The notes: generated by a model not told the origin, from the sequence alone. A DNA stretch of 36,406 nucleotides from Magnetococcales bacterium (GCA_015228925.1 JADGCQ010000031.1:1-36406), one strand, 5' to 3'; positions 1-36,406 are shown, counted from the stretch's first letter. Translations and numbers: made by a program.

Positions 1-48
1 AAACCCTGGGGGCAATCCCCCAGACCCCTTTTTTCTTTTAATAATTTT
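1..48. repeat. Dispersed palindromic repeat, copy A (right-arm orientation, cut by window start)
   Basis: The core at 5-22 is the palindrome CTGGGGGCAATCCCCCAG, with 7-bp arms and a 4-nt loop, followed by ACCCC and a T-rich run at 29-43. The same unit recurs at 8030-8240 (two inverted arms), 34239-34426 (two inverted arms) and 36361-36406. This copy lies 16 nt beyond the stop of rph, read on the minus strand. It could act as a transcription terminator in either direction. Its partner arm is presumably beyond the window start. Confidence 0.85.
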
Positions 49-63
49 ATTTATTTTATAGTG

Positions 64-8014: not shown

Positions 8015-8029
8015 TGGATCGGTGGGAAA

Positions 8030-8240
8030 ATTATTAAAAGAAAAAAGGGGTCTGGGGGATTGCCCCCAGGGTTTTGACTTTGTTTTTGACTTTAAAAAAA
8101 AAGGTTTCCATGCCTCGTTTTTGACTTTGTTTTTGACTTTAAAAAAAATCAAAATCGAAGAATGAAGCTTTTTATTTAAAGTCAAAAGCAAAACCCTGGG
8201 GGCAATCCCCCAGACCCCTTTTTTCTTTTAATCATTTTAT
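8030..8240. repeat. MITE-like inverted-repeat element, copy B, between convergent genes
   Basis: Two arms of about 43 nt face each other, the left at about 8033-8075 and the right at about 8189-8231. Each contains the CTGGGGG/CCCCCAG palindrome and an A/T-rich flank on its outer side. The interior is AT-rich and holds a direct repeat of a GTTTTTGACTTT-type unit (about 8072-8101 and 8118-8148). The element fills the space between the stops of the asmA-family gene (8014) and the AEC transporter (8244). It encodes no protein. It could terminate both convergent transcripts, or be a non-autonomous mobile element, or both. Confidence 0.85.
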
Positions 8241-9329: not shown

Positions 9330-12300
9330 ATGAAAAAAGGTCTTATCCTAGCCGGTCGGTATACGCTACAGAAAGATCTTGGGCAGGGGCTGTTTGGTGA
9401 TGCCTATCTGGCCCACGATGAAGGGACCGGATTGGATGTCACCGTCAAAACATTGAATGAGCGTATCAGTCGGGATGAGCGGATTCTTGAGGATGTGCGG
9501 CGCAATTTTCAGCTTTTGCAAAATCTGGATCATCAGAATATCGTCAAGGTTCATGCGTTGGAATTCGATGCCCTGACCCAGGGGCATTTTTTGGTTCGGG
9601 AATATGTTGAGGGGGTGAGCCTGGCGGAATACCGGATGCGTTACGGTGGAGGCAAGGTTCCGTTGACGGAAGCACTGGAAATTTGCCGCCAGATTGCCAT
9701 GGCTTTGGATCATGCGCATCGCTCGTTGCTGCATCGAGACCTCAGGCCGGACAATATTCTGGTCAGTGAAGCGGGGGAGGTGAAACTGTTGAATTTTTGC
9801 TTGGTCCCCGAATCGTTGGCCAAAGAGATTCGGGCCGAAAATAGGCATCGGGATTTGGAATCTTCCAACCGAACGCATGGTTACATGGCACCAGAGCAAT
9901 TTTTTGGGTTTCCGCCGCCGGGTCCGGCGGCGGATCGTTATGCCTTGGTTGCTATTTTTTATGAGCTTGTTTCGGGGCGTCCGCCGTTTGACTATCCCGA
10001 ACCCCAGGCGTTGATGCATGCAATTTGCAATATGGCACCGCCCATGGTTCGGGATTTGGGTAGGCGGCGCAATCATTTGATCAGCCAAGGTATGTCGAAA
10101 GATCCCGGAAATCGGTTTCTTTCGGCGATGGCGTTTATCGAAGCCATGGAGGCCTCCCCATTATTGGTTTTAACTCGGTATGCCAAGCCATGGGTGGCGG
10201 CTGCGACTGTTTTGGGATTGCTTGGCGGATTGATTTGGTTTTTCAATGCGGGTGGGCGGGTGAAAGAATGGGGGGGGAACCCTGGGGGTGTGGCAACGGC
10301 ACCGGTACTTGGTGAAGACATCAAAAAGGAGATGGATCGGGGAACGACGGTCATGTTGCGGGTGGAGAGCCGACCTGCGGGGGCACAAGTGACGATGGAT
10401 GGTAAGCGGATGGGAATGACGCCGCTCAAGGTGGGTCAGGTGATCAAGGGGCGGTATGCTTTAAAACTGGAAAAGGTTGGCTATACGGATGTTGTGGTGG
10501 ATATGGAACTGGCGGAAGATACCGTGGTGGATCTAAGTTTGGATGCGGTGTTGCCAGGGGAATCGGTGGCGTCTTCGGAGAAGCCCAGTGAGGCACTGGA
10601 AGAAAAGAGAGGGGATGTCGCGGTTGATGATCATCGTTTTGAGGATCCGCAATCGCCTATAGGAAGTCCGGCCATGGTGGCACCATTGCCAACGTTGGCA
10701 GGGGGAGAGACTTCCGGTCCTCCAAGCGTGGCTGCCAGTGCGGCAGTAGGGCAAGGGGATGATCAAAATGTGGTCGCGTTGCCGGGTCCGGTGGCGGTGA
10801 TCCCTGAGCCAAGTTTGGTGGCTGCGGCATCGGATCCGGTTCCGGTGGTTGCGGCATCCGATCCGACTCCGGTGGTTGCGGCATCCGATCCGACTCCGGT
10901 GGCTGCGGTATCCGATCCGACTCCGGTGGTTGCGGTACCTGAACCGGCTCGTGGGGAGGTTGGTAGGTCGGAATCGATTGATGTGACGGCCATGCCGGAG
11001 CCAAAACCTTTGGTCAAAGGGGTGCCTGCGGTGTCCGTGCAGGAGGAGGAGACCGTTTTGGCGGTGAAGGCGGAACCTTTACCGGTTCCACCCCCATTGC
11101 GGGTTTTACGGTCTCCCGAGGCGGTTTCTGCACCATCGGGGGTGGTTTATGATGAAAAGGCCATTGCGCGACTTCTCAAGGATGCAACCCGGCATTTTCG
11201 TGCCGATCGGTTGACCTCTCCATTGGGAAACAACGCATTGGAAAGTTATAAGGCTGTGCTGGCCATGGATCCGGGTCGCCAGGAGGCGTTGTCGGGTGTT
11301 CAGCGTGTCGCGTCACGTTTGTTGATTTTGGCGCAAGAGGATATTGACGAGGGGCGTCTTTCTCAACCCGAGGGGCGCAATGCCTTGGTCAAAGTGGCCA
11401 AGGTTGGGGAATTGGATCCGGCCAATCCCAAAACGGGACAGTTATTGAAGGAAATTGCTGAGAAATATGTGATCCTGGCTCAGAGTGCTGCTGAAAAAGG
11501 TGATCGTGGCATATTGGAAGCTCGGTTGGCGCAGGCGAGAGCGGTGGCACCGGGGGATCCGTTTGTTGTTGAGGCCTATCAAAAGCTTCTCCAGAGGGAT
11601 ATCCACACGGAAAAACCTCCGGGGCCTGTTGTTGTCGATGATGGCAAGTCGGTGCCAATTCAGCCTGAAGCGGTATCGGAATTGGAGTCGGAACGGGATG
11701 GCACGGGGATCTCTTTGCCTGTCGCAAAGGTTTCTGTCCCCTCGCCGCTGCCGGAACCAGCGAAAGTGCCGGTCGTTTTATCCAAAGTCGAGAATCCCAC
11801 CGTGGCGGGTGCCGTGTGGAAAGATCCTGTGACGGGTATGGAGTTTGTTGAGATATCAAAAGGTTGTTTTAACATGGGTACGGAGATGGGTGACCCGGAT
11901 GAAGCACCTGCCCACCGGGTATGTTTGGATGGATATCGTATTTCCAAGTTGGAAGTGACCCAGGGGGTATGGAAAAAGATTATGGGATCGGATAACAATC
12001 CATCCAAGTTTAATCAGGATGATCGTTTTCCGGTGGATTCGGTTTCTTGGAACATGGCCATGGAATTTATCCATCGGTTGAATGAGAAAGCCCCGGTGGC
12101 GTTTCGTTTACCGACGGAGGCGGAGTGGGAAAATGCGTGTCGGGCTGGTGGGGTCGATAGTTATCAGTTTGGCCCATCCATTCAGACCAGTCAGGCCAAT
12201 TTTAATGGTACCCAACCCCTTCCTGGGGAGGAAAAGGGGATTTTTCGACGCACAACCACGACGGTTGGTTCATTTGCGCCGAATCGTTTTGGACTGTTCG

Positions 12301-12539
12301 ACATGCATGGTAATGTATACGAATGGGTAGAGGATTGGTATGTTAAGGATTATTATGGAAAATCGCCGGAGCGCAATCCGATAGCCCAGGATGATCGTTC
12401 GTTTCTTCACGTACTGCGGGGTGGGGCATGGCACAGCAATTCCGGCAATTTGCGGTGTGGTTATCGGTACAGAGGCCGACCCGATTTTAATAATTTTGGC
12501 AATGGATTCAGACTGGCCAGCTCGCATACCGGTGGCTGA
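9330..12539 (+). CDS. Degenerate Ser/Thr protein kinase with PEGA and formylglycine-generating-enzyme-like domains
   Basis: This 1069-residue protein starts with a Hanks-type kinase fold (about residues 8-275). It has a glycine-rich loop at 18-26, lysine K40, an H135-R-D-L-R-P-D-N catalytic loop and A187-P-E. The DFG position reads N155-F-C, so the Mg-binding aspartate is lost and the catalytic-loop lysine is arginine. A transmembrane helix lies at about 289-307. An extracytoplasmic PEGA domain (about 343-405) and a low-complexity Pro/Val/Ala linker with four 9-residue repeats follow, then a helical, possibly TPR-like region (about 610-770). A C-terminal FGE-sulfatase/SUMF1-type domain occupies about 831-1066. 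In that domain the second FGE active-site cysteine is present (L-R-C-G-Y-R-Y-R) but the first is not, so formylglycine generation is doubtful. It is likely a signalling or scaffold receptor. Confidence 0.9.
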   Translation: MKKGLILAGRYTLQKDLGQGLFGDAYLAHDEGTGLDVTVKTLNERISRDERILEDVRRNFQLLQNLDHQNIVKVHALEFDALTQGHFLVREYVEGVSLAEYRMRYGGGKVPLTEALEICRQIAMALDHAHRSLLHRDLRPDNILVSEAGEVKLLNFCLVPESLAKEIRAENRHRDLESSNRTHGYMAPEQFFGFPPPGPAADRYALVAIFYELVSGRPPFDYPEPQALMHAICNMAPPMVRDLGRRRNHLISQGMSKDPGNRFLSAMAFIEAMEASPLLVLTRYAKPWVAAATVLGLLGGLIWFFNAGGRVKEWGGNPGGVATAPVLGEDIKKEMDRGTTVMLRVESRPAGAQVTMDGKRMGMTPLKVGQVIKGRYALKLEKVGYTDVVVDMELAEDTVVDLSLDAVLPGESVASSEKPSEALEEKRGDVAVDDHRFEDPQSPIGSPAMVAPLPTLAGGETSGPPSVAASAAVGQGDDQNVVALPGPVAVIPEPSLVAAASDPVPVVAASDPTPVVAASDPTPVAAVSDPTPVVAVPEPARGEVGRSESIDVTAMPEPKPLVKGVPAVSVQEEETVLAVKAEPLPVPPPLRVLRSPEAVSAPSGVVYDEKAIARLLKDATRHFRADRLTSPLGNNALESYKAVLAMDPGRQEALSGVQRVASRLLILAQEDIDEGRLSQPEGRNALVKVAKVGELDPANPKTGQLLKEIAEKYVILAQSAAEKGDRGILEARLAQARAVAPGDPFVVEAYQKLLQRDIHTEKPPGPVVVDDGKSVPIQPEAVSELESERDGTGISLPVAKVSVPSPLPEPAKVPVVLSKVENPTVAGAVWKDPVTGMEFVEISKGCFNMGTEMGDPDEAPAHRVCLDGYRISKLEVTQGVWKKIMGSDNNPSKFNQDDRFPVDSVSWNMAMEFIHRLNEKAPVAFRLPTEAEWENACRAGGVDSYQFGPSIQTSQANFNGTQPLPGEEKGIFRRTTTTVGSFAPNRFGLFDMHGNVYEWVEDWYVKDYYGKSPERNPIAQDDRSFLHVLRGGAWHSNSGNLRCGYRYRGRPDFNNFGNGFRLASSHTGG
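10824..10931 (+). repeat. Four tandem 27-bp coding repeats (AASDPTPVV linker)
   Basis: Units at 10824-10850, 10851-10877, 10878-10904 and 10905-10931 each encode a variant of A-A-S-D-P-T-P-V-V within the linker of the kinase-PEGA-FGE protein. The near-identity of the DNA units suggests recent slippage and possible copy-number variation between strains. Confidence 0.85.
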
Positions 12540-12632: not shown

Positions 12633-13190
12633 GTGTTCTCAGTGGACCATCGGGTTGAGAAAGGACTTTATCTGGCCGTGCGGGATGGCGGTCAAGGAAG
12701 GCAGGTGGTTGGTGTGAGCGTTACAAAAATTCTTCTTGTCCTGATGGCGACCCTCGTTCTTGGGAAAGTTTTGTTTGATTCTGGGGATGCGGCAGGGGGG
12801 ACGCCGGGTGTTTTCACGGTTGTCCTTTTGGTTCTGGCGGGGTTGGTCGTTTATTTTCTCCGAAACATGATCAGTGGGGTCAGTTTTGGGGAAGGTGAAG
12901 GTGAAACCGGTACCGTGGACGCTTCGGGGGAATCGGTTCTTCGTCCCGGATCGCGTGCGTTGCGGGTGATTCACCATGAGCCAACATGGTCGGTCGTGGC
13001 CAAGGGACGTTCTCTGGGTGTTTTTAAAAACACCCCCATCCCTGCATGGATACGCACTTCGGATCAGCGCGAAGCCGATTATTGCGGTGTCTCTAACGTG
13101 CCTCTTCCAGAAAAATGTACCTGCATTGAAATTCCAGAGCGTTCCGAACTGATCGTCCCTCCCGGTTTGATCTATATCATCCGTACATGA
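12633..13190 (+). CDS. Hypothetical two-helix membrane protein
   Basis: I do not recognise this 185-residue protein. Two hydrophobic segments (about residues 25-48 and 58-78) are followed by an acidic, glycine-rich stretch. A C-terminal domain of about 90 residues has no obvious motif and ends in an I-V-P-P-G-L-I-Y-I-I-R-T tail. The start is uncertain: GTG at 12633 is the longest form, a second GTG at 12642 is in frame, and no clear ribosome site distinguishes them. It lies 93 nt downstream of the kinase-PEGA-FGE gene on the same strand and may be its partner, but that is only proximity. Confidence 0.6.
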   Translation: MFSVDHRVEKGLYLAVRDGGQGRQVVGVSVTKILLVLMATLVLGKVLFDSGDAAGGTPGVFTVVLLVLAGLVVYFLRNMISGVSFGEGEGETGTVDASGESVLRPGSRALRVIHHEPTWSVVAKGRSLGVFKNTPIPAWIRTSDQREADYCGVSNVPLPEKCTCIEIPERSELIVPPGLIYIIRT

Positions 13191-13253
13191 CATCAGAAGG
13201 GGCCGCGTCGTCTGGCGTTTGCGAGAACGATGCTTGCCCACATTTTTCTGCCT

Positions 13254-13340
13254 CCTTCTCCGTTGCTTTGAGAGAAGGGGTGGTTCATCGGATCTATCAA
13301 AGGAGGAGATGAAAGTTCCTCCGTCCCTCTCAATGGAGGG
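13254..13340. repeat. Three consecutive short hairpins
   Basis: CCTTCTC (13254-13260) pairs with GAGAAGG (13272-13278). GGAGGA (13302-13307) pairs with TCCTCC (13317-13322). CCCTC (13325-13329) pairs with GAGGG (13336-13340). They sit after the stop of the two-helix membrane protein gene and may form the 3' end of that transcript. No T-run follows. Confidence 0.45.
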
Positions 13341-13599
13341 TGGCGCATCGCTTTGATGGCTATTGCACACTGATCCGCCATATTTGAAGTCAGTTTATAA
13401 GGCCCAGCTCGCCAGTTTTTTCCTGCGAATATCACTGTCACTGGCATTTCTGTCACACTTATGCAGACCGCCACAACCGACCAGAGCGGCGTTATGCTCC
13501 CCCAGTTGCTTTGGGGTGAGTTTTTCGTGTTTCCTCTATTTACATAATTTTGGTTCAAGTCAGGTGATTGGAATTTCGGGTAATCGTGCAACAACGCCA

Positions 13600-13628
13600 T
13601 GGACATGTCACAATCTTTTTGGCATAAT
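13600..13628 (+). promoter_or_regulatory. Sigma70-type promoter of the accessory operon
   Basis: TGGACA at 13600-13605, a 17-nt spacer and CATAAT at 13623-13628 give one mismatch in each box at ideal spacing. The predicted start of transcription near 13635 leaves a leader of about 30 nt before the ATG at 13666. It is the best promoter match seen upstream of the five-gene cassette. Confidence 0.5.
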
Positions 13629-13665
13629 GGCACAACCATAAACAATTAAACAATGTAAGTTAATA

Positions 13666-14802
13666 ATGTCTCGGCAATTTCAGGCGCTAAACGCTATCAG
13701 TAGAATTTTGGGCTGGGATGATGATGAACAAGCCAACAAGGAATTCGGCTGGCTTAGGTTCATGGCCAAAAATAAATTCGATAATTATCAGGATTTTCTG
13801 GCTGGAGCACGTTTCATTGAGAGTCTGGTGGTCTGGTTGCAACAATTCAACAGTCTTGAAGAACGACTTATTGCTTATGACTTTCTACGAAAGCGCTTGC
13901 TTTTCATTTCAGCCTCGGAAATGAACCATTTGGTGGAACGTTTCTACGCCAGGGTCGTGGTACCCGACTTGATCTCACGAGCGGCGACGCAACATGGTAT
14001 TCAGACTTACCAAGTCTTGTCACACCCTGATGCTTCCAATACTATTCAAAAAATGCGGCAGCGAATTCTTTTCATGGGGTTAAGTGATGGGGCAAGAATT
14101 GATGTTTTACGTCGCGCCAATTCAACTATCCTCCACAATGATCAAATTGTGATGCAGCCCTTTTTGGACGATGAAAAATGGCGTGATTTATCAAAAAAGC
14201 TTAAAGATTTATCGGAGGATGTGGTTAAGAAGTTCGATACCGTCTATATTATAGATGATTTTGCTGGTTCTGGAACAACATTCATTAGAAAAAATTCTAC
14301 AGGAAAATGGAATGGAAAACTACCCAAGCTCTGGAGAAGCCTTAGTGAGACGCGATCCAGACTTAAAAATTATGATGAATTCCCAATTGTTGATGATCCA
14401 TCCGTCCATGTCCATCATTATATCGTCACTGAGCAAGCCAAATTAGCGATGTTGGAAAAAGAATTCGAAATTCGTAAAGATCTTAAGCAAGAAGGGTGGT
14501 TTCCAAAACCGATACCTTTTACTGAAGGGATGGTGTTGCCAAAAAATTTTTCATTGACCCCACCGGATGATCAGCAATTTTTTTCTCTCACGGATCACTA
14601 TTACGATAAGGATCTAGAAACGATTCATAGTAAAGAAAGCGGAAATCCAGACATGCGCAGAGGTTATGCGCAATGCGCTCTACCGTTAATTCTGGAACAT
14701 AACACGCCCAACAATTCCGTTTCCCTATTGTGGGCAGAAACAGAAGGGACGCAAGGACACGCTATGCGCCCCCTATTTCGTCGTCGCCAAAGACACAGTT
14801 AA
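13666..14802 (+). CDS. PRTase-CE-like phosphoribosyltransferase-fold protein (predicted conflict-system component)
   Basis: This 378-residue protein has an N-terminal helical region (about 1-110) followed by a type I phosphoribosyltransferase fold. The PRPP-binding loop is plain at residues 195-205: I-I-D-D-F-A-G-S-G-T-T, preceded by a beta strand. The closest family I can name is PRTase-CE, a phosphoribosyltransferase-like group described as a predicted component of prokaryotic conflict systems. I assign it from memory of the architecture, not a search. The retained D-D and S-G-T residues suggest it can still bind PRPP or a related ribose phosphate. The product is unknown. It is the first gene of a five-gene unit, 15 nt before the ATPase. 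The ribosome site is weak. Confidence 0.75.
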   Translation: MSRQFQALNAISRILGWDDDEQANKEFGWLRFMAKNKFDNYQDFLAGARFIESLVVWLQQFNSLEERLIAYDFLRKRLLFISASEMNHLVERFYARVVVPDLISRAATQHGIQTYQVLSHPDASNTIQKMRQRILFMGLSDGARIDVLRRANSTILHNDQIVMQPFLDDEKWRDLSKKLKDLSEDVVKKFDTVYIIDDFAGSGTTFIRKNSTGKWNGKLPKLWRSLSETRSRLKNYDEFPIVDDPSVHVHHYIVTEQAKLAMLEKEFEIRKDLKQEGWFPKPIPFTEGMVLPKNFSLTPPDDQQFFSLTDHYYDKDLETIHSKESGNPDMRRGYAQCALPLILEHNTPNNSVSLLWAETEGTQGHAMRPLFRRRQRHS

Positions 14803-14817
14803 ACCTCTTCCGATGCC

Positions 14818-16725
14818 ATGAGCAATCCCTTTGAAAGGCGTGCCAGCGAATATATGCGAGATGATCATGGGTTCCTGTCCATGGTCAGTCCAGAACCTTT
14901 AGAACGATTTGTTCCTTATGCCAAAGACGGTCGATTGTTTGACCGCTTAGTGCAGGTTATCGGAACACCGGGCAGTGGCAAAACAACTCTTGCTTCCTTG
15001 CTGGAATACCCGCGTCTTTCCCTGGCGGTACGATCAGGTCAGCCAGAACACAAAGAAATCGTTGCGATGCTACACGAGTGCTGCATGGTTGTCGATCAAC
15101 ATGCCGTTATCGTAGCAACTCGTTTACCGATGGAGTCAGAATATCGCGATTATCGTGAACTTCCCTATCCGCCGGAACTGCGCCATCGTCTTTTTTGGAC
15201 TATGATCCAGGCTAGGGCTATGCATGGATGGGTTCGGGGTATCATGCGTTCTGAACAAATTCAGGCTGAGGCCATAACATTTCATTATCGTTCCGGTACT
15301 GATTCTTTGCATGATGCAATCGGTGGTCATAATGGTTGCCATATTCTCACTCGCGCCTCAATCGTGGAAAAAGCTATTTATAACATCGGTGCTGCAATAT
15401 TTCCTATTCCAGAAAAAGAATTTACTGAAGATGCCAGAGAACCCTATAGGCCACTGGATATTATTGAGAAAATATCATTTATTGGCAAAGACGATACAGA
15501 GCGGTCTTTGCGTCCATTATTAATCCTGGATGACGTGCATGTGCTTCACCCTGAGCAACGTCAACGGTTGGAAAAAGAACTAGGAAGAAGAGAATTATCG
15601 TTTGCTCGATGGCTGCTTATGCGTTTAGACGCTCTCCCTTTCCAAGAGTCTTTGAACATTCCAGAAAAGGTGGATTCTGAGACAAAATCGGGCCTGCAAC
15701 ATCTTCGTGAAGTTGTCCAAATCAGGATGCAGGATGATGAAAGAATATTTAAGAAAATGATTGAAAAAATGGCTAACCGCTATTTGCATCAAATGGATAT
15801 TTTTGCAAGAAGACAAAGAAGTCTTACCAGTTTACTGTCTACCGAGCAGGTGTCCTTGCCAATAGGGAAAATGGAAAAATTAAGAAAGAAAATTGACGCA
15901 ATACAAAAGGAACATCAAGTAACACCTGAAAGACGTACTCAACTATTAGATTTGATCAACCAATCGAGCTGTCAAGACGTTGACCTGCATGACGACGACA
16001 TACAATTGGCTTTGCTTAGCATTCTGATGCATCGTTATGTCAACCGCATTCCAAAACAAAGATCATTATTTGACGATGACAATGACCCAGACCCAGCAAG
16101 ACCATTGAAGGTGGATAGCTCTATAGTTCACGCAGCAAGGTTACATCTTTTTCATAAATTTGACCGAGTTTATTATTATGGTTTTCAGTGTTTAATCAAT
16201 GCTGCATCACAAAATCCCGAAATCTTTCTTAAACTGGCCGCACCTTTGGTGGCTTTGGCGGAAACCCGGTTCATACGGGGAAAAGATGGTACTTTGGATG
16301 CATCGACGCAACAAAAACGTTTACGGGAACGCGCAAGGGAGATTCACGACCAGGAGTGGAGTTTTCCACGAAAGGAGGCAGTCCGCCGTCTCACCAGGGG
16401 TATGGCTAAAGAATGCCTAGCAACCACACTGGTGGAAAACGCCAGGAATGGTGCCGGCAATAACGCTTTTGGTATTCCTCAATATGAATTTAACGACTTG
16501 GTAAAAAATCAACAGGACTTCGCGGAGGTTCTTCATTACGCGGTAGCCTACAATGCCATTTTCCTGAAACAGAATTATAGGCAAGGGGGAAAAGAATGGT
16601 GCCTGTTGCAATTGGGGGGAACTTTGATTTTGGAGTATGGTTTGACCTGGATGCAAGGCGGATTTCTGGAACGGAGTGTCAATGACCTTGTAAAAATCCT
16701 GGGGGAACAGGATAGAACCGCATGA
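14818..16725 (+). CDS. P-loop ATPase of the accessory cassette (possibly ORC-CDC6-like)
   Basis: This 635-residue protein has a Walker A motif G-T-P-G-S-G-K-T at residues 49-56. A Walker B-like strand L-L-I-L-D-D-V-H lies near residues 234-242, with a long, charged helical region after it. The layout is that of an AAA+/STAND-type ATPase. I recall ORC-CDC6-like ATPases as frequent partners of PRTase-CE proteins in predicted conflict loci, which fits the order here, but this is not verified. It likely acts as the nucleotide-driven sensor or switch of the system. Its stop overlaps the next start as ATGA, indicating translational coupling. The gene is AT-rich compared with the flanking chromosome. 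Confidence 0.72.
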   Translation: MSNPFERRASEYMRDDHGFLSMVSPEPLERFVPYAKDGRLFDRLVQVIGTPGSGKTTLASLLEYPRLSLAVRSGQPEHKEIVAMLHECCMVVDQHAVIVATRLPMESEYRDYRELPYPPELRHRLFWTMIQARAMHGWVRGIMRSEQIQAEAITFHYRSGTDSLHDAIGGHNGCHILTRASIVEKAIYNIGAAIFPIPEKEFTEDAREPYRPLDIIEKISFIGKDDTERSLRPLLILDDVHVLHPEQRQRLEKELGRRELSFARWLLMRLDALPFQESLNIPEKVDSETKSGLQHLREVVQIRMQDDERIFKKMIEKMANRYLHQMDIFARRQRSLTSLLSTEQVSLPIGKMEKLRKKIDAIQKEHQVTPERRTQLLDLINQSSCQDVDLHDDDIQLALLSILMHRYVNRIPKQRSLFDDDNDPDPARPLKVDSSIVHAARLHLFHKFDRVYYYGFQCLINAASQNPEIFLKLAAPLVALAETRFIRGKDGTLDASTQQKRLRERAREIHDQEWSFPRKEAVRRLTRGMAKECLATTLVENARNGAGNNAFGIPQYEFNDLVKNQQDFAEVLHYAVAYNAIFLKQNYRQGGKEWCLLQLGGTLILEYGLTWMQGGFLERSVNDLVKILGEQDRTA

Positions 16726-17831
16726 TTATTCACCCTATGAAAGATCATTGGCGTAACTGTGTGCGACATGAGAATGATCATGTCTCTGATTTTGTAAAAC
16801 ATTATTTTACCGAGACTCGTCAGGTACTTCTGATTGCCGGGGCTGGCTTTGACCCTCGCAGCCGCATGGTCACCGAACTGTTGTCACCTCAATGCACAGG
16901 AAGAATAAAAGGGATTTTTTTGAGGGAAGAGCGACTCAGTACCCCAGATCCAGGGCTTAAATCCAGAGCTGATCAGAACGAAGCTGTCCTACGTCAACTC
17001 GTACCAAATTATGATATCTTCAAATTAAATATTTTTGCAAGTGACGGTGCTGTCATTCTTGGAACAGAACTTCAAAAATTAATAAATAACGAAATGCTGG
17101 TCGGAATTACAGATATTGTTTTTGATGTATCAGCTATTTCCTTGGGTGTTTGTTTTACATTGGCTAGAATGCTCCTTAAAAAATGTCATGAAGCATCACC
17201 GTGTATCAATATGCACCTTTTTCTGTCGTTTCATCCTGGAATTGATGCAGATATTAGGACAGATGACGATGATCGAATATCTACACTCCGTGGATATCTG
17301 AAGCCGAATGCTTTAGAGGAAGACAAGAACAAAGCAAGACTTTGGATACCGATTCTGAGTAAACGCAAACGGGCCGCTCTTATCCGTATTCGTGAAAAAC
17401 TCCGAGATGATCAAGATGATGTCGATATTTGCCCTGTCTTACCATTTCCTACTCAAAATCCTGGGATTGGAGATAGCTTGGTGGAAGCCTTTCAATCCGA
17501 ATTTGAAAATGCATGGGATGTGGACTATCGTAACATCATCTATGCGGCTGAGGATGATCCACTTGACCTGTACGAAACCATCCTCAAACTGTACGACAAG
17601 CGAGAGAAGGCGTTTGGTGGTCTGAACGGATCACAAATCATCTTGTCTCCCGGTGGTAGTAAAGTGCTGGCTTTGGGAGCCATGCTGGCGGCCATTGCCC
17701 TTGACTTGCCTGTCCTGTACGTCGAAGATGTCTCCTATCATTTGGGTGATTCCAGCGCAATGGATCAACGATCTCAAGCAAGCAAAATCGTTCATCTTTG
17801 GTTACTCGGTGATGCCTACCCGGCAGGATGA
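16722..17831 (+). CDS. Rossmann-like protein of the accessory cassette (possible ligand sensor)
   Basis: I do not recognise the family of this 369-residue protein. An N-terminal Rossmann-type start is visible: strand V-L-L-I-A-G-A-G-F-D-P-R-S near residues 35-47. A second segment near residues 305-335 reads I-L-S-P-G-G-S-K-V-L-A-L-G-A, then helix residues, then P-V-L-Y-V-E. That G-G-S/T-K plus L-Y-V-E arrangement resembles the T-G-G-T-K segment of CARF-like (nucleotide-ligand-binding) domains, so a sensor role is a reasonable guess. The start overlaps the ATPase stop and the stop overlaps the SIS-HAD start (ATGA at both ends), so all three are likely made in fixed proportion. A second in-frame ATG at 16738 is possible. 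Confidence 0.6.
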   Translation: MIIHPMKDHWRNCVRHENDHVSDFVKHYFTETRQVLLIAGAGFDPRSRMVTELLSPQCTGRIKGIFLREERLSTPDPGLKSRADQNEAVLRQLVPNYDIFKLNIFASDGAVILGTELQKLINNEMLVGITDIVFDVSAISLGVCFTLARMLLKKCHEASPCINMHLFLSFHPGIDADIRTDDDDRISTLRGYLKPNALEEDKNKARLWIPILSKRKRAALIRIREKLRDDQDDVDICPVLPFPTQNPGIGDSLVEAFQSEFENAWDVDYRNIIYAAEDDPLDLYETILKLYDKREKAFGGLNGSQIILSPGGSKVLALGAMLAAIALDLPVLYVEDVSYHLGDSSAMDQRSQASKIVHLWLLGDAYPAG

Positions 17832-19750
17832 GACTCATGGAACGCTCAATAACGCGCTTCCGCCAACAGATGGATCGTTTGCCGGAAACTATCCGAAATG
17901 TGGGTGTCATTGATCCCCAACGACTGTCCAGTGCCTTGGTGCATACTGAATCTGACTTGGTTGTGGCGGTAGGCTCTGGTGGATCACTGGTTACCTGCGA
18001 ATTTTTGCGTCTGTGTCGTGCCTATGCCTTAGGGGCTGAGACCATCTGTCTAACCCCTCTTGCATGGATAGGCCGTTCTGGATTGGTAGAAAGACGCCCC
18101 CTTTGGCTGTTCAGTGCGGGTGGAAATAATCCAGACATTCTTTCCACTGTTCAAGCAGCCGTGGGGACCGGGTGTCAACGGTTGAATTTACTAACGGCTA
18201 CCCCCACCTCTCCTCTTGCGGACATTATACAAAAGTATGCAGCAGGATGTGTGCATACACTCGATGGTTTGACCGAAAAAGATGGCTTTTTGGCTGTACA
18301 CTCTCTGATAGGATCCTGCCTCGCCATTGTCCGAGGTTTCTCACCCTGGGGGGAGAAGGAAATTTATCACGATCATGCCCTGCGTCTGGCGAACGCGCTG
18401 GAACCGGAATGTCGCCATAATCGGACCGACCACGCCACTGTGTTGCTCAATAAGTCCCATTGGCTCGTTTTGTACGATCCTTTGATCATCCCAGCGGCGA
18501 TTGCTATGGAAACGAGTTGCCATGAACTGGGTTTGGCTTCCGTTCAAATGACGGATTTCAGAAATTTTGCTCATGGACGCCACGTTGGGTTATTGCGTAT
18601 GCAGCACGCAACCGCCATCATATCCTTGGTGACCCCGCGAACGGAGGCTATTTGGAACGGCATTCGGGAATTGTTGCCCGTTGCAATTCCATCCATCACA
18701 CTTAATTATCAGACCCCCATTCCGTGGTCGGCACTTCATGCCATTGGAGATGTCTTAACCATTTTGGAACGGGTCAGTGAGTATCAGCATTTAGATGCTG
18801 CTAAACCAGGTGTTCCAGAATTTGGCAAAGCCATCTATTCAGAACCATCCATTCTGGGCTTAACCGAAGGTATGGATACCCCATGGAAAAGAAAGGCCAA
18901 CATCAATACCAAAAGCGGGTGGACAGACCACCGATGGATGACTGCTGAACGGACCGTTCGACGTACCTTACGCCAGACCGTGTTTCGGGGTCTGTTGCTA
19001 GATTTTGACGGTACTGTGGTCGGCAATCCCCAACAAGTTGCCGCAAACTGGGTCAAAGAATGGCTCACCACTTTGTTGGACAATGGTTCTATCCTGGGTA
19101 TTGCGTCTGGGCGTGGAGGATCCCTCACAGAGGCATTGCGCTCACTCATCCCAGAAAAATATTGGGACTGTGTTCTGGTGGGATATTACAATGGTGGATT
19201 GCTTCTTCCTCTGTCTCAATCTTTTGATAAAGAGACGCTGCTTTCCTCACCGGCATTATGCAAAATTATTGATGCCGTAGAGACACATCAGCAAATCCAA
19301 GGTTTGGTTCGAGATAGTAAATCGGGTTCCTTGCAATACGTCCTTTACCCAGAAAAGGGAATTTCTGTTAAAATATTGGCGGATGAAATTTTGATGTTGG
19401 TCAGTATGTTGTCTTTGAAGTCGGAGGTAAGGATCTTATGTTCCGACCATTCGGTGGATATCTGCCCCGTGACATCCAGCAAACGGAACGTTTTGGAAAA
19501 AATGATGTCTCAATATCAAGGAGATCAAAACAGGGCTATCCTCCGTGTCGGTGACAAGGGTAACCAGGGGGGAAATGATTACGATATCTTAGATAGCCCG
19601 TTTGGTCTGAGTGTTGCGGATGTCTCTGACCGACCCGAAGCGTGCTGGAATTTACTGCCGCAAACACTGTCGGGACCGGAAGGATTGCGCTACTATAGCC
19701 GGTGTATCCAATGGGTTGGGTCGGGAAATTTCTTGTTCGATCCAATCTAA
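17828..19750 (+). CDS. SIS (sugar isomerase)-HAD phosphatase fusion protein
   Basis: This 640-residue protein joins two domains. The N-terminal half (about 25-330) has SIS-type segments: V-A-V-G-S-G-G-S near residue 43, and L-W-L-F-S-A-G-G-N-N-P-D near residue 95. A second SIS-like repeat around 205-260 suggests the double-SIS layout of sugar-phosphate isomerases or GlmS-like proteins. The C-terminal part is a HAD hydrolase with motif I D392-F-D-G-T and a motif IV-like G-D-K-G-N-Q-G-G-N-D-Y-D near residues 576-587. It resembles sugar-phosphate phosphatases such as the sucrose- or trehalose-phosphatase/Cof type. Together these suggest isomerisation and dephosphorylation of a phosphosugar. It is coupled to the preceding gene by ATGA and followed after 60 nt by a PfkB kinase. 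Confidence 0.78.
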   Translation: MRLMERSITRFRQQMDRLPETIRNVGVIDPQRLSSALVHTESDLVVAVGSGGSLVTCEFLRLCRAYALGAETICLTPLAWIGRSGLVERRPLWLFSAGGNNPDILSTVQAAVGTGCQRLNLLTATPTSPLADIIQKYAAGCVHTLDGLTEKDGFLAVHSLIGSCLAIVRGFSPWGEKEIYHDHALRLANALEPECRHNRTDHATVLLNKSHWLVLYDPLIIPAAIAMETSCHELGLASVQMTDFRNFAHGRHVGLLRMQHATAIISLVTPRTEAIWNGIRELLPVAIPSITLNYQTPIPWSALHAIGDVLTILERVSEYQHLDAAKPGVPEFGKAIYSEPSILGLTEGMDTPWKRKANINTKSGWTDHRWMTAERTVRRTLRQTVFRGLLLDFDGTVVGNPQQVAANWVKEWLTTLLDNGSILGIASGRGGSLTEALRSLIPEKYWDCVLVGYYNGGLLLPLSQSFDKETLLSSPALCKIIDAVETHQQIQGLVRDSKSGSLQYVLYPEKGISVKILADEILMLVSMLSLKSEVRILCSDHSVDICPVTSSKRNVLEKMMSQYQGDQNRAILRVGDKGNQGGNDYDILDSPFGLSVADVSDRPEACWNLLPQTLSGPEGLRYYSRCIQWVGSGNFLFDPI

Positions 19751-19810
19751 AAACAACTCAATAAACAATGCGTTATACGGTAATTATTTCGGATGTATGA
19801 GGAAATTCCG

Positions 19811-20839
19811 ATGATCAGCATAGCCACCGGACAGGCCATCGATCCCGCAGTCTCTGGATCGGGTTTGTTGGCTCTGGATGTGATTTTTGGACCCGAAGGC
19901 CCTGTTGCCTTACCAGGAGGGACCTGCGGCAATGTTTTGTTAACCTTGGGTGAAATGGGTCATATCACGATGCCCCTCGCACATCTCGGTCATGACCAAC
20001 CCGGTCAAATGATCAATGATGAATTTCGTCGCGTTGGTGCCATCTTAGAAGGTCTGCATCACGACTCGTCAATCTCGACACCCATCATTCTACAATATTG
20101 GCATCGTGATCCCAAGGATGGGGAAGACCATTATTTTTCATTCCGCTCTCCGACGACCAATAAACGTTTTCCCGCCTATCGGACCATATCCAATACTTTG
20201 GTTGAGGAGATAGCACCAAGATTGTCGAAAATTGCAATTTTTTTCTTTGATCGCATCTCTCATCCGATATTACGCGCGGCTAAGTTGGCAAAACATGGGG
20301 GGGCGACGATTATTTTTGAACCTTCATCGATCGATGATCCGATACTCTTTCAGCAGGCCATGGAAACCTGCCATATCCTCAAATTTTCAGAAAAAAGATT
20401 GGGGCATGAAATGGAATCGATGTTGCGTTCCACTTCAAAGCCTGAGTTGATTATCAAGACAAAAGGGTGTCATGGTATTGAGGTTATCATGAGGGGACGA
20501 TCTGGTTGTGAACATGTTTCAATGCCCGCTCCGGTGGCTCCTCGATTAATCGATTCTTGTGGATCTGGAGATGCGGTTACTGCGATCTTGATTCATTTAT
20601 TATTGACACAACATGACAGAAGCTCACGCGCTATATTGGATTATCTGGCCTATGGTCAGGAAATAGCGGCAATTAATTGTGGATTTCTTGGTGCGCGTGG
20701 AGCATTTCTGTCTCTAGGATGGTCATCGCTGGTATCCAATGTCACTGATCGTCGCAAGGTTCCGAAAAGAATGATCAAGCGTACCAGCCCATTTGCAGGA
20801 CTCGAAAAGGGGCAATCTGGAACGCTTTTTTTGTCATAA
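19811..20839 (+). CDS. PfkB (ribokinase) family carbohydrate kinase
   Basis: This 342-residue protein belongs to the ribokinase/PfkB fold. Near its end it has the family ATP/anion-hole motif D248-S-C-G-S-G-D254, with D254 as the catalytic base. The N-terminal half has the substrate-side P-G-G-T-C-G-N-V-L segment typical of the family (G-G-x-x-x-N). It should phosphorylate a sugar or nucleoside, and the substrate is unknown. The start chosen is the ATG at 19811, which has a GAGGA site at about 7-nt spacing. An earlier ATG at 19793 lies before that site. It is the last gene of the co-directional unit. Its stop is 30 nt from the convergent NADAR stop. Confidence 0.83.
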   Translation: MISIATGQAIDPAVSGSGLLALDVIFGPEGPVALPGGTCGNVLLTLGEMGHITMPLAHLGHDQPGQMINDEFRRVGAILEGLHHDSSISTPIILQYWHRDPKDGEDHYFSFRSPTTNKRFPAYRTISNTLVEEIAPRLSKIAIFFFDRISHPILRAAKLAKHGGATIIFEPSSIDDPILFQQAMETCHILKFSEKRLGHEMESMLRSTSKPELIIKTKGCHGIEVIMRGRSGCEHVSMPAPVAPRLIDSCGSGDAVTAILIHLLLTQHDRSSRAILDYLAYGQEIAAINCGFLGARGAFLSLGWSSLVSNVTDRRKVPKRMIKRTSPFAGLEKGQSGTLFLS

Positions 20840-20869
20840 TTACGCCGATTATTTACAGGAAATTTAAGT

Positions 20870-21442
20870 TTATCCGTATGCCACGGTCTTTTCCATGCCG
20901 TATGACAAAGCAGATTCTGTAGACTGGGTACCCTTTGGATTAGGAAGGGATTTTTTCACCGATTCTGACGGTTGAAGCAAGATTTCCCGGATTTCCATCA
21001 ACAGAATACCTAACATATTTTTTCCTTTTCCGTTCACTTCTCCCCATAGACGATTGACTGGTGAGTCCGTGTTGGCGGCTTCGACCAAACGCGCATTCCC
21101 GGTAGACCGTAGCACATCGGCCAAATCTGGGTGCTGAACGAATTTCTCTTTCAGGATCTGTTTCATTCGGTCGAATTTAATGTTGTTCCAGTCTGATCGC
21201 ACATCCCAAATATAGAGTCCATGTGCTGCCATGGCTACCAGGGAGGGTGACGGGGCTGCCATCAACCAATCACGAACCTCTTTTTTCCGGGGCTTTCCGG
21301 CTTGGTAGGCGTGTTCAGCCGTTGGGAAAATCTCCCCTTCAAACAGGATTTCCCGCTTATATAAATTGCTAAACACACCATATGGTTTCTCATTGGCACG
21401 GTAGAATTGAATTTCATGGAGCATCTCGGTCTTTCTGACCAT
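20870..21442 (-). CDS. NADAR family N-glycosidase (DUF1768/YbiA-like)
   Basis: This 190-residue protein has the NADAR signature. It opens with F-Y-R-A-N-E-K-P-Y-G-V-F-S-N-L-Y, continues with F-P-T-A-E-H-A-Y-Q-A, and later has L-R-S-T-G-N-A-R-L-V-E-A and R-L-W-G. The acidic and aromatic residues in these blocks form the active site in the family. Known members cleave N-glycosidic bonds of riboflavin-pathway intermediates, and others remove ADP-ribose from guanine in nucleic acid as antitoxins. The C-terminal 35 residues are a non-conserved tail. The ATG at 21442 follows an AAGGGAA site. It faces the PfkB gene, so it may be an autonomous partner of the island rather than part of its operon. Confidence 0.88.
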   Translation of the reverse strand: MVRKTEMLHEIQFYRANEKPYGVFSNLYKREILFEGEIFPTAEHAYQAGKPRKKEVRDWLMAAPSPSLVAMAAHGLYIWDVRSDWNNIKFDRMKQILKEKFVQHPDLADVLRSTGNARLVEAANTDSPVNRLWGEVNGKGKNMLGILLMEIREILLQPSESVKKSLPNPKGTQSTESALSYGMEKTVAYG

Positions 21443-21456
21443 CGTGTATTTCCCTT

Positions 21457-21470
21457 AATCAACATTGATT
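21457..21470. promoter_or_regulatory. Palindrome in the NADAR leader (possible operator)
   Basis: AATCAA at 21457-21462 and TTGATT at 21465-21470 form a perfect 6+6 inverted repeat with a 2-nt centre. It lies between the predicted -10 box and the NADAR start codon. Binding by a regulator is possible but not shown. Confidence 0.25.
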
Positions 21471-21494
21471 ATTCTTTCCGGAACATCTCGTGCG

Positions 21495-21523
21495 ATCCTA
21501 TCATGGTTTTATCAATGGTTCAA
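21495..21523 (-). promoter_or_regulatory. Possible sigma70-type promoter of the NADAR gene
   Basis: Read on the minus strand, TTGAAC (21523-21518) is followed after 17 nt by TAGGAT (21500-21495). The start codon at 21442 lies about 45 nt beyond the expected transcription start. The spacing is ideal and both boxes are partial matches. Confidence 0.35.
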
Positions 21524-21945
21524 CGGAGTTAACCCAGGGGTACAGGATAATCGTAAATGAATGTCGCAAGATAGCAATATCTTTTTCCGGTAAAGAAACA
21601 GCAGAGAGATTGCTATCCATTTCAGAATCTTTCCTGGCTGTTGCGTTTAGGTGATGTTTACCGGATGACGGTGATTTACGGGAAGGGGTGGAGGAAAAAA
21701 CTGGAGATCAAACTGGGCGGTAAGGTAGAATGGGATGTGGCGTGCATGTGATCGCTGGTCACACAGGGAAGTCTGGATGCCGCCAAAAAGAAAAAAATGT
21801 AAGGGGTGACGCAGTCGTTTGTAGAGAGTGTGGGGATGTGGAACTCTGGAAAGGGAAAAATCGCCAATTTCCGGTTTGATCCAACATCTGGGGGAGACGG
21901 GAAAACTTACCGAAGGATAAAGAGTCAGAAAGAATAGGTAACTCG

Positions 21946-24603
21946 TTGATAAATACAGATGTCTCCAGCAATAGCAAGGGTTCCACGAAAGATCTGGAAA
22001 AGCATACGCCGATGATGGCCCAGTATTGGGAGATCAAGGGGCAGCATCCCGATGCCTTGTTGTTTTATCGCATGGGTGATTTTTATGAACTCTTCTTTGA
22101 AGATGCCAAGGTAGCTTCCCAGGTATTGGATATTGCTTTGACCGCCCGTGGCAAGGTGGCGGGTGAAGATATCCCTATGGCGGGAATTCCCTACCGCAAC
22201 CTGGATCAATATTTAAAAATCGCTGTGGAAGCGGGTTTCAAGGTGGCCATTTGTGAACAAATGGAACCTCCTGGATTGACCAAAGGTCCGGTGCGGCGTG
22301 AAGTCCTGCGGGTCGTTACCCGGGGTACGCTGACCGAAGAAACCATGCTGGAACCCGGAGCCAATAATTTTCTGGTCGCGATCGTGCCGCCAAACAAGCG
22401 GGATGAGGGGCCTGCCTTGGCCGCTTTGGACCTTTCCACGGGTGAGTTTCGTGTGGCCTTGGCGCAATCTTGGGACCATTGTGTGGGTCTTTTGTCCGCT
22501 TTGGCCCCCGTCGAGGTGGTGGTGGTTCAAGGTTGGAATCCACCGGAACTGTTAAACCCATGGAAAGAGATGTTGACCCGGCGTCCCTCCTGGGAGTTTG
22601 ATTTGAAACAGGCGCGGGGGGTGTTGTTGGAGCATTTTCAGGTGGCCAGTCTTGAAGGGTTTGGCTTGGAGCGTTCTTTGACAGGGCAGGCGGCGGCGGC
22701 GGCGTTGATTTATTATTGCCGCGATGCCCAGCGGGGGGCACTCAATCATCTCAGCGGCTTGTCGGTCATGACCTCCGATGCGGGGATGGTGTTGGATGAG
22801 GCCTGTCGCAGCCACCTTGAAATCAACGTCAGTTTGCGCTCGGGTGCGTGCCAGGGAAGTCTGCGGGGGGTGTTGGATCAGACGGTGACCGCCATGGGGA
22901 GCCGAATGTTCGGCCAATGGTTGAACTATCCTCTCCAGGATATCGATGCCATTGGTGCCCGTCAGGAAGGTGTCGCTTGGTTGTTGGAGCATGGATTGGA
23001 GCGGGATGGGTTGCGTGGTCGCCTCAAGGAGGTGCGCGACTTGGAGCGTCTGTTGGGGCGCATTGTATTGCGGCGGGCCTCTCCGAGAGATTTGGGTGCC
23101 CTGCGCGATACCCTGCTGGCTTTTCCCAAACTGGTCCACTTTTTGGAAGCGGAATCGTTGCCGGGACTGTTGTTGGAGGTGCGTCGGGGCCTTGTAGACT
23201 ATGAGCCATTGATGGCGCGGTTGCAATCGTGCCTCGTGGATGTTTTACCCGCATCTTTGAAGGATGGCCCTTTTTTTCGTCCAGGGTTTGATCTGGAGTT
23301 GGACCGGCTGCGTGATTTGGCCGGGGGGGGGCGTGAAGGGCTGATGCGTCTGGAGGCGGCAGAGCGGGAGAAAACAGGGATTCCCAGTTTGAAAATCAAG
23401 TTTCATCGCAGTTTCGGCTATACCATCGATATCACCAATTCCCATAAAGACAAAGTCCCTTATTACTATCAGGCGCGTCAGACCATGACCGGCTCCATGC
23501 GCTATACGACGCCGGAATTGAAAGAATTCGAAGAACAGATATTGGAAGCCGAGGAACGATTGGCGGTTTTGGAAGGGCAATTGTTTGAAACCATCCTCAT
23601 GGAAGTGACTCACTATGTGGGTGATCTGCAACGCAGTGCGCGCCAATTGGCCATTTTGGATTGTCTGGCATCGTTTGCGCATACCGCCTATCAGCGGGGA
23701 TTTTGTCGCCCGTTGGTGGATGGGGAGGATCGCATTCGGATTGTTCGTGGACGCCACCCGGTGGTGGAGGCGTTTACCGAGGCCGACTTTGTGGCCAATG
23801 ATGCGCTGATTGATGGGGAAGGTCATCGGATTGGTTTGATTACCGGACCCAACATGTCGGGTAAGTCTACCTTTATGCGTCAGGTCGCTTTGATCGTGTT
23901 GATGGCCCATATCGGTTCTTTTGTCCCTGCCCAGACGGCGGCCATCGGGTTGACGGATCGCATTTTTACCCGGGTCGGGGCGGCGGATGACCTGGCGGGT
24001 GGACGTTCCACGTTTATGGTGGAAATGAGTGAAACCGCTTACATCCTCAACCATGCCACCTCCCGCTCCTTGATTATCTTGGATGAAATTGGTCGGGGTA
24101 CGGCGACGTATGAAGGGCTTTCCATCGCTTGGTCGGTGGTGGAATTTTTGCTGACCAGTGGTCGGGGCCGTACTCTGTTTGCGACCCATTATCATGAACT
24201 GACCGCTTTGGAAGCGATGTTTCCGGGTGTGGTCAATTATACCGTCGAGGTTCGGGAATCGGAGGGACGCCCTTTGTTTATGCATAGTATCATTCCGGGG
24301 GCGGCGGATCAGTCCTATGGGATACACATTGCCGAATGGGCGGGTATGCCGACGTTGGTGACCGAGCGGGCCTGGGAGATTTTGGCCGATTTACAACAGC
24401 GTGAACGGGGTGTGGTTCATGCACCGATCAAACCACCTCCGTCGCGACGACGCCGGACGAAGGATCCGGCGCAGATGACCTTGTTTCCAGATCTTCCCGG
24501 GTCGGCGGTGGTGGAGATGCTGGCTGATCTGAATCCTGATATTTTGTCGCCACGGGAGGCTTTGGAGGCGATTTATCGTTTGAAAGGTCTTTTGGGATCG
24601 TAA
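21946..24603 (+). CDS. mutS: DNA mismatch repair protein MutS
   Basis: This 885-residue protein recognises mismatches and small loops and, with MutL, starts repair. The N-terminal mismatch-binding motif D-F-Y-E is at residues 45-48. The Walker A motif G-P-N-M-S-G-K-S-T is near residues 633-641, followed by the conserved T-R-V-G-A-A-D-D and D-E-I-G-R-G-T segments and the F-A-T-H-Y-H-E-L motif. The length is normal for the family. The start is a TTG at 21946, because an in-frame stop precedes it and no ATG lies before the conserved H-T-P-M-M-x-Q-Y block at residues 20-27. The ribosome site is poor. It is the first chromosome-core gene after the island. Confidence 0.96.
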
Positions 24604-34207: not shown

Positions 34208-34238
34208 GTCACTGGGTGGGGAAAAAAGCCTGGAAAAC

Positions 34239-34426
34239 GATTAAAGAAAAAAAGGGGTCTGGGGGATTGCCCCCAGGGTTTTGACTTTAAACAAAAAGAT
34301 TCATTACTTCGCTTTTGAATTTGTTTTTGAATTTAAACAAAGTATTGAAGCTTTTTGTTCAATATCGAAAAGAGAGTCAAAACCCTGGGGGCAATCCCCC
34401 AGACCCCTTTTTTCTTTTAATAATTT
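34239..34426. repeat. MITE-like inverted-repeat element, copy C, between convergent genes
   Basis: Two arms (about 34239-34282 and 34377-34421) are inverted copies of the same unit as copies A, B and D. Each has the CTGGGGG/CCCCCAG palindrome and an A/T-rich outer flank. The roughly 95-nt interior is AT-rich, with GAATTTGTTTTTGAATTT-like repeats analogous to those of copy B. It lies between the stops of secB (34207) and the coiled-coil gene (34483), again at converging 3' ends. Confidence 0.85.
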
Positions 34427-34482
34427 TTTTTGGGGGGTGTCAGCGCGTTATTACACCCTGGACGCCCCCCTCTTTTTTTGGA

Positions 34483-36330: not shown

Positions 36331-36360
36331 CCTTTGTGGTAGGGCAATCGCAAATGATCA

Positions 36361-36406
36361 ATTATTAAAAGAAAAAAGGGGTCTGGGGGATTGCCCCCAG
36401 GGTTTT
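36361..36406. repeat. Dispersed palindromic repeat, copy D (left-arm orientation, cut by window end)
   Basis: This copy has the same unit as copies A-C in left-arm orientation: an A-rich flank, GGGGT, the CTGGGGG-ATTG-CCCCCAG palindrome and GGTTTT at the very end. It lies 31 nt beyond the stop of the AI-2E family transporter gene. The matching right arm would be beyond the window. Confidence 0.85.

Follow-up and report, generated by a model that had tools for sequence, protein, structure and literature searches.

What could unite a phosphoribosyltransferase (PRTase), a P-loop ATPase, a putative ligand sensor and a set of sugar-phosphate enzymes in one compact cassette? The question is raised by a stretch of 36,406 nucleotides from a Magnetococcales bacterium (GCA_015228925.1 JADGCQ010000031.1:1-36406; hereafter the window, to whose full length all coordinates refer), in which five co-directional genes (13666-20839) are followed by a convergent NADAR gene. 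We find that these genes form a horizontally moving system and not a housekeeping pathway, and that they fall into two blocks. PRTase, ATPase and CARF protein are a fixed, co-evolving triad; the SIS-HAD and PfkB proteins, with NADAR, are a second block, in whose place sister systems carry a DNA methyltransferase. The cassette is very probably a mobile conflict system. Its six proteins are the following.

13666-14802, plus strand: PRTase-CE protein of 378 residues, with the phosphoribosyl pyrophosphate (PRPP) loop IIDDFAGSGTT and the C-terminal HNTPNNSVSLLW (PF24390; PADLOC PRTase_III-A)
14818-16725, plus strand: ORC-CDC6-like P-loop ATPase of 635 residues, with Walker A GTPGSGKT and Walker B LLILDD (PF24389)
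16722-17831, plus strand: tandem CARF protein (CARF6) of 369 residues without an effector domain (PADLOC PDLC01916; AlphaFold2 model)
17828-19750, plus strand: fusion of a SIS domain (∼residues 5-345) and a HAD-IIB phosphatase (∼residues 385-600), 640 residues (AlphaFold2; Pfam/NCBIfam)
19793-20839, plus strand: PfkB-family sugar kinase of 348 residues (PF00294, E 6.4e-6)
20870-21442, minus strand: NADAR (YbiA-type) N-glycosidase of 190 residues, convergent and accessory (PF08719; YbiA 2b3w)

All six open reading frames proposed by the original prediction, a reading of the sequence alone, were found at these positions, and most of its family assignments held. The folds of the PRTase and the ATPase were assigned from profiles and motifs; structures were predicted for the CARF and SIS-HAD proteins. 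What had been described as a PRPP-loop protein is a PRTase-CE (PF24390: E 1.1e-18, 68 bits, cut-off 27; PADLOC PRTase_III-A: E 1.1e-17), and the accompanying P-loop ATPase is ORC-CDC6-like (PF24389: E 5e-12, 45.8 bits, cut-off 27, covering residues 228-607). The SIS-HAD, PfkB and NADAR assignments were confirmed by profiles and, for SIS, by the predicted structure. The third protein, taken earlier for a possible ligand-binding Rossmann protein, had to be reassigned as a tandem CARF protein: it gave no match in the Pfam profile search and matched PADLOC CARF6 (PDLC01916) with an E value of 2e-87. The 19 best structural matches of its AlphaFold2 model (pLDDT 93), obtained with VIA-align on chains pre-selected by Foldseek, were all CARF proteins (Z 14.5 to 7.7), headed by Can1 (6sce; Z 14.5, 233 residues aligned, root-mean-square deviation 3.2) and including Csm6, Can2, Card1, Csa3, Cam1 and a ring nuclease. 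Ranking by Foldseek only had placed chloride-transporter domains first; their superposition was poor (TM 0.2-0.3), and CARF proteins came top on the second alignment. A CARF-like motif, LSPGGSK, is kept in the second half of the protein, and in the homologue alignment the conserved motifs differ between the two halves.

The AlphaFold2 model of the SIS-HAD protein (pLDDT 92.9) places its SIS domain among sugar-phosphate isomerases (GlmS, AgaS-like and NagB-II-like), with Z values of 28-32 over ∼300-340 residues; the deglycase FrlB (8glr) scored 24.9, compared with ∼30 for GlmS, AgaS-like and NagB-II. Profile matches in both Pfam and NCBIfam identify the C-terminal half as HAD-IIB. The NADAR matched PF08719 (E 1.7e-25, 90.6 bits) and YbiA 2b3w (E 4e-20).

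Motif conservation was read from 82-93 homologues for each of the five genes and from 39 NADARs; the alignments used for AlphaFold2 held relatives from genomes and viruses, with plasmid-derived rows left out. The DDFxGSG loop of the PRTase and its residues D197 (0.98) and D198 (1.00) are near-invariant in 93 homologues, and the Walker A lysine K55 of the ATPase is invariant in 91. Likewise invariant are E233, H249, D392, D394, K552 and D576 of the SIS-HAD protein in 87 homologues, of which E233 and H249 are presumably the counterparts of GlmS catalytic residues, and the GG and GxGD motifs of the PfkB protein in 82. In the 39 system-linked NADARs, E37, K44 and E129 (alignment numbering, from MLHEIQF) do not vary, and the spacing of E37 and K44 is that of E88 and K95 in the E. 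coli C7 NADAR (PMC11543638). Since the catalytic positions of each of the six families hardly vary, all enzymes of the cassette look active. A C-terminal HxxPNN motif, considered as a hallmark of NADAR-linked PRTases, was discarded since it is spread across the PRTase-CE family, retrons included.

With the PRTase as query, 84,980 species genomes yielded 290 relatives, of which the best 80 were retained. Custom hidden Markov models located the full five-gene set in 71 of the 80 loci; in the remaining nine, a contig edge falls in or beside the missing gene, and hence the set is complete in 71 of 71 uncut loci, which is far more than chance would give. It spans at least 12 bacterial phyla. Among plasmids, tblastn searches with the CARF, SIS-HAD, PRTase or PfkB protein returned a nearly identical set of 16-18 plasmids every time, and relatives of the PfkB protein (E≤1e-10) were confined to plasmids carrying the system. 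The five genes also stand together in annotated regions of Bosea, Rhizobium, Shinella, Sphingomonas, Sulfitobacter, Paraburkholderia and Paenarthrobacter, and in the window's class the CARF gene is rare (2 of 48 genomes). Neighbours of the homologous loci include integrases or resolvases, conjugation (type IV secretion system) genes, Type I restriction-modification genes, Gabija GajB, HEC-01, PD-T7-1 and patatin effectors; each comes from a single locus or a few loci, and as such they are consistent with defence islands and are not a measured enrichment. As side observations, transposase-like insertions split the CARF gene of one locus (L013:12607-13958) and the ATPase gene of another (L028:11862-13366).

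In the window itself the cassette lies on an accessory island.

13201-22002, no strand: accessory island (GC content of 45.5% for 13666-21442; blastn against five same-genus genomes)

This island of ∼8.8 kb carries the five genes together with the convergent NADAR gene. The GC content of the cassette compares with 52.7% and 53.2% in the two flanks, and blastn showed the insertion site to be empty in all five same-genus genomes. In the closest of them (L158; mutS 95% identical at the DNA level), the equivalents of window positions 13200 and 22003 are ∼5 bp apart. We found neither terminal repeats nor an integrase at the island ends, just 11-13 bp matches of chance length.

The gene order of the triad, PRT-ATP-CARF, is constant in all loci, and the sugar genes shift position. 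In the layout PRT-ATP-CARF-SISHAD-PFKB, a convergent NADAR accompanies every complete locus (26/26). In the layout SISHAD-PRT-ATP-CARF-PFKB, it is found in 6 of 45 loci, and most genomes of this SIS-HAD-first type lack NADAR altogether. Two other orders are less common: SISHAD-PFKB-PRT-ATP-CARF (L143) and, without PfkB, NADAR-SISHAD-PRT-ATP-CARF (L144 and the viral contig L095). NADAR is an optional accessory part, and its absence from most SIS-HAD-first genomes led us to reject it as an obligate antitoxin. Several NADAR-linked loci have a small helix-turn-helix regulator divergent from NADAR (for example L004:12607-12978 and L009:5405-5794); none is apparent beside the window NADAR. A second NADAR in the same genome (G000:C111:112738-113193; L147:8739-9194) is 72% identical to that of the window, scores like the system-linked NADARs and sits in a prophage, with RecT, an SbcC-like protein, a Rha-type regulator and an integrase nearby. 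We regard it as a candidate phage-borne counter-defence against this system.

Inter-locus distances separate the two blocks. Their correlations were 0.88-0.94 within the PRTase, ATPase and CARF group, 0.94 for SIS-HAD with PfkB, and 0.74-0.82 between the blocks; the within-minus-between difference was 0.13 (bootstrap 5-95%: 0.07-0.19). NADAR correlated at 0.74 with the sugar block and at 0.48-0.56 with the triad.

The triad also exists on its own. A survey of PRTase-CE genes in 398 same-phylum genomes, followed by context checks, returned more five-gene loci, six confirmed loci of the retron type, in which a reverse transcriptase is encoded, and two loci that pair PRTase with NADAR. It also turned up a single triad lacking the sugar genes (L134), the third protein of which is CARF6 (E 7.6e-115). 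A search with the ATPase of this triad matched 152 plasmids, 129 of them from Klebsiella, and two phage records; 135 of the 152 plasmids, all genera included, are conjugative. The sister loci that were inspected, among them Klebsiella pKPHS2, Moraxella pNP7-2 and Acinetobacter phage MD-2021a, encode PRTase-CE, ORC-CDC6-like and CARF6-like proteins together with an N6-type DNA methyltransferase and, once, a dUTPase. Nine further triads on viral contigs carry either an N6-type methyltransferase (six) or one of another kind that has the motifs DPFCGSGT and TSPPY (three). An adjacent DNA methyltransferase was present in 16 of 16 triads without sugar genes (13 NPPY/F, 3 TSPPY, motifs intact), whereas the five-gene loci have no methyltransferase within the set and just two weak, more distant matches; for this reason we consider the sugar block and the methyltransferase to be alternatives in one slot. 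The NPPY/F or SPPY motif marks the amino-methylating kind of DNA methyltransferase.

The methylase-linked triads have the same three proteins in the same order and are mobile too. They differ in that an amino-type methyltransferase replaces SIS-HAD and PfkB, in their shorter PRTase and CARF proteins, and in the Walker B motif of the ATPase, which is DE; at the equivalent of window residues D238-D239, 89 of 91 ATPases of the five-gene type have DD, and ATP hydrolysis by the latter may be altered. They are also the strongest members of PF24389 and PF24390 that we saw and give the strongest PADLOC matches, and the Pfam and PADLOC models were therefore probably drawn from them. On pKPHS2 (L166) the genes of the triad system are annotated as hypothetical proteins. 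DNA of the sister PRTase-ATPase pair was found in 4 of 5426 complete E. coli genomes, on plasmids in all four.

In several respects these results bear out the original prediction, which had expected a PRTase-CE/ATPase conflict system to recur in unrelated genomes, with and without NADAR and often in defence islands. Neither of the outcomes it had named as contrary, lack of co-occurrence beyond close relatives and assignment of all genes to a housekeeping sugar pathway, was seen. Its equation of the system with the five-gene set stands in part: the set recurs, and the core is a triad that occurs without sugar enzymes as well. Its further suggestion, that the sugar enzymes may make or clear a ribose-derived metabolite or a nucleotide modification, remains a suggestion, now sharpened by their replacement of an amino-type DNA methyltransferase.

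Taken together, the anatomy and the conflict role of the cassette are well supported. What the data show directly is the gene content, the recurrence and mobility of the set, the folds with their catalytic residues, the two co-evolving blocks and the swap of modules; the effector role of the PRTase, the acceptor, self-protection, the direction of the sugar steps and the chemistry as a whole we infer. For protection against phages the signs are indirect, namely mobility, neighbours of the defence kind and validated relatives. The best explanation of the whole, to which we give somewhat less than an even chance, is a mobile conflict system, likeliest anti-phage or anti-plasmid, in which the triad would attack and a partner module would protect self. 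The ATPase would be a probable nucleic-acid sensor or switch, with the PRTase as effector, and the CARF protein may be a nucleotide-ligand sensor gating both. The PRTase would move phosphoribose from PRPP onto exocyclic amino groups, likeliest those of DNA bases or nucleotides. In the sister systems, methylation of self DNA would block the target amines; in the five-gene system, NADAR would hydrolyse the N-ribosyl bond, and the SIS, HAD and PfkB enzymes would process the sugar-phosphate or amino-sugar adduct. Self-protection is the most likely role of the second module because this module sits where the sisters carry an amino-type DNA methyltransferase, and we hold it to be almost evenly balanced whether the sugar block fills such a slot. 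A transfer of phosphoribose to amines would be blocked by methylation and reversed by an N-glycosidase, since both act at exocyclic amines or their bonds. Amino-sugar phosphates are substrates, in established pathways, of PfkB kinases and of SIS enzymes of the GlmS, NagB-II and AgaS type, and processing of an adduct by the sugar block fits for that reason. Even so, we put forward amine-phosphoribosyl chemistry as a tentative proposal that may well be wrong. Doubtful in our view is its full form, in which PRPP-based phosphoribosylation of amino groups would mark or poison foreign nucleic acid, with an amino-DNA methyltransferase or NADAR plus amino-sugar-phosphate erasers as interchangeable self-protection.

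Several points weigh against this explanation. DNA as the target comes from the methyltransferase swap only, and the activities of the components are predictions from sequence and structure. NADAR is missing from most SIS-HAD-first genomes and so is no obligate antidote. The SIS domain lies nearer to GlmS, AgaS-like and NagB-II enzymes than to FrlB, and removal of an adduct is not favoured over plain isomerisation. Tagging alone leaves the role of the CARF protein unexplained, and some methyltransferases of the sister loci may simply lie nearby and serve another function than protection.

The CARF protein invites an account in which a small messenger, of nucleotide or sugar-phosphate type and derived from PRPP or ribose phosphate, is made or destroyed by the sugar block; the CARF protein would sense this messenger and switch the ATPase and PRTase, and NADAR and HAD would quench it. 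CARF domains are ligand sensors, the one in the window is without an effector domain, and the different conserved motifs of its two halves would suit an asymmetric ligand. Furthermore, the usual cyclases are rare: profile searches found no dedicated cyclase (Cas10 or CD-NTase) in the island, the window genome had no match to SMODS and just a weak one, below the cut-off, to Cmr2, and among the carrier genomes Csm1 was present in 1 of 36 and a SMODS cyclase in 9 of 36. This rarity led us to reject a classical type III CRISPR or CBASS wiring of the CARF protein. The triad exists with a methyltransferase and without the sugar block, however, so that the block is not a general source of the CARF ligand, and the PRTase and CARF protein co-evolve more tightly than the CARF protein and the sugar enzymes; we consider signalling of this kind unlikely, though worth keeping in view. 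It is improbable that the PRTase instead burns the PRPP or nucleotide pool on infection and halts phage replication, with SIS-HAD and PfkB deepening or reversing the effect via ribose phosphate. PRTases do consume PRPP, PRTase effectors are found in retrons, and the best, weak matches of the PfkB protein are ribose-1-phosphate kinases, but depletion accounts neither for the amino-type DNA methyltransferase in the same slot of the sister triads nor for the pairing with NADAR.

The occupation of the methyltransferase slot could also mean that the product of the sugar block, be it a sugar-derived donor or a modified nucleotide, serves to mark self DNA, the triad attacking DNA that is unmarked. 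Phages use SIS-type arabinose-5-phosphate isomerases in making sugars for DNA hypermodification, which would agree with such a scheme. Since the second module has no glycosyltransferase or other DNA-acting enzyme, and the only transferase of the locus is the PRTase, which belongs to the triad that both variants share, we judge self-marking to be quite improbable. An ordinary accessory sugar-salvage operon with no conflict role is hardly credible. SIS, HAD and PfkB proteins are typical enzymes of sugar catabolism, and internal substrates would make a transporter unnecessary; yet the set contains neither a transporter nor a catabolic regulator, the PRTase-CE, ORC-CDC6-like and CARF families are of the conflict type, the distribution is patchy and often plasmid-borne, and the triad is found without sugar genes. 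A housekeeping sugar pathway was rejected on the grounds of this distribution, the empty site in relatives and the triads without sugar genes.

The promoter-like site of the cassette lies just 5' of the PRTase gene.

13600-13628, plus strand: promoter-like site TGGACA-17-CATAAT with an extended -10 (consensus scan; 10/12 matches, TG ahead of the -10)

As the top extended -10 match of the region it fits the good promoter expected upstream of the first gene, and it is a putative promoter by consensus match only. The two expected ATGA couplings are real and join ATPase to CARF at 16722 and CARF to SIS-HAD at 17828. The gene neighbours of the island in the window are a kinase-FGE protein, one gene without a family match and MutS; no DNA methyltransferase is among them. 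The first of these (9330-12539) is a fusion of a Ser/Thr kinase, a PEGA domain and a formylglycine-generating-enzyme (FGE)-like domain. In the relatives, the stop of the upstream gene overlaps the mutS start (ATGA), and the island sits exactly there (window 13187-13200 and 21946-22010); the MutS of the window genome must therefore start elsewhere, for example at the TTG at 21946, and approximately its first seven residues are replaced owing to the insertion. Repeats of 45-60 bp in both orientations occur at window positions 1-50, 8027-8240, 34234-34427 and 36357-36406; the same elements are repeated in contigs of two of the same-genus relatives (L158 and L161), frequently at contig ends.

PRTase-CE, ORC-CDC6-like and CARF6 families are already catalogued in Pfam and PADLOC. 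A search of the open literature turned up no account of the three as one system, and neither the five-gene form nor the swap of sugar module and methyltransferase was described there; earlier work may nevertheless have recorded parts of the triad. If it can be taken at face value, the swap would offer a clue to the product of the conflict PRTase, namely one that is prevented by amino-group methylation and removed by N-glycosidases or amino-sugar enzymes, and it is a hint of a hitherto undescribed defence that tags DNA or nucleotides. The five-gene cassette also brings to light a CARF sensor that has no neighbouring Cas10, and the ATPase of its methylase-linked sister is matched on ∼129 Klebsiella plasmids sequenced to date, a good number of which are conjugative.

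How, then, does the cassette relate to known systems? In DS-32 (NF053875/NF053876), as here, a PRTase-CE is paired with a NADAR; DS names are reserved for anti-phage systems validated experimentally in the DefensePredictor paper (PMC13092281). The DS-32 pair is without CARF, ORC-CDC6-like, SIS-HAD and PfkB proteins, and the window proteins fall outside it: the PRTase had no match to DS32_1 (NF053875) at E≤1, and the NADAR scored 61.9 bits against DS32_2 (NF053876), below the cut-off of 240. Genuine pairs are seen in two loci from other genomes of the taxonomic order to which the window belongs (L131 and L132, from genomes G034 and G030), where NADAR lies 46-93 bp downstream of PRTase-CE in an operon of a DrmD-like helicase, PRTase-CE, NADAR, a DUF1156 methyltransferase and a DUF499 protein, and where PRTase and NADAR exceed the NCBIfam cut-offs for the anti-phage models DS32_1, phosphoribosyltransferase-like, and DS32_2, of the NADAR family. 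These two loci are DISARM-like islands with a DS-32 pair inside.

Type III-A retrons usually employ a PRTase as their effector (PMC12548924), and reverse transcriptase genes adjoin PRTase-CE genes in other loci. The window island lies outside this class: it has neither a reverse transcriptase nor a non-coding RNA, every long gene being assigned to another family and no Rfam match being found. With the CARF sensors Can1, Can2, Card1, Csm6 and PADLOC CARF6 the third protein shares the tandem CARF fold; in contrast to those of type III CRISPR, it has no effector domain and no cyclase in its locus. NADARs serve as antitoxins that reverse guanine ADP-ribosylation (PMC11543638, PMC11125620). The DarT1-NADAR and YarT-YbiA toxin-antitoxin pairs resemble the cassette in that NADAR, with its catalytic E/K/E kept, is the likely eraser of an N-ribosyl modification; their transferase is an ADP-ribosyltransferase, whereas here it would be the PRTase, and NADAR is optional. 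The sugar block has its closest parallel in fructoselysine salvage, where a SIS enzyme, the deglycase FrlB, acts with a PfkB kinase, FrlD, on amino-sugar phosphates. The SIS fold and the combination of a SIS enzyme with a PfkB kinase are matched in the cassette, but its SIS domain is fused to HAD, lies nearer to GlmS, AgaS-like and NagB-II enzymes than to FrlB, and stands in an operon of the conflict type.

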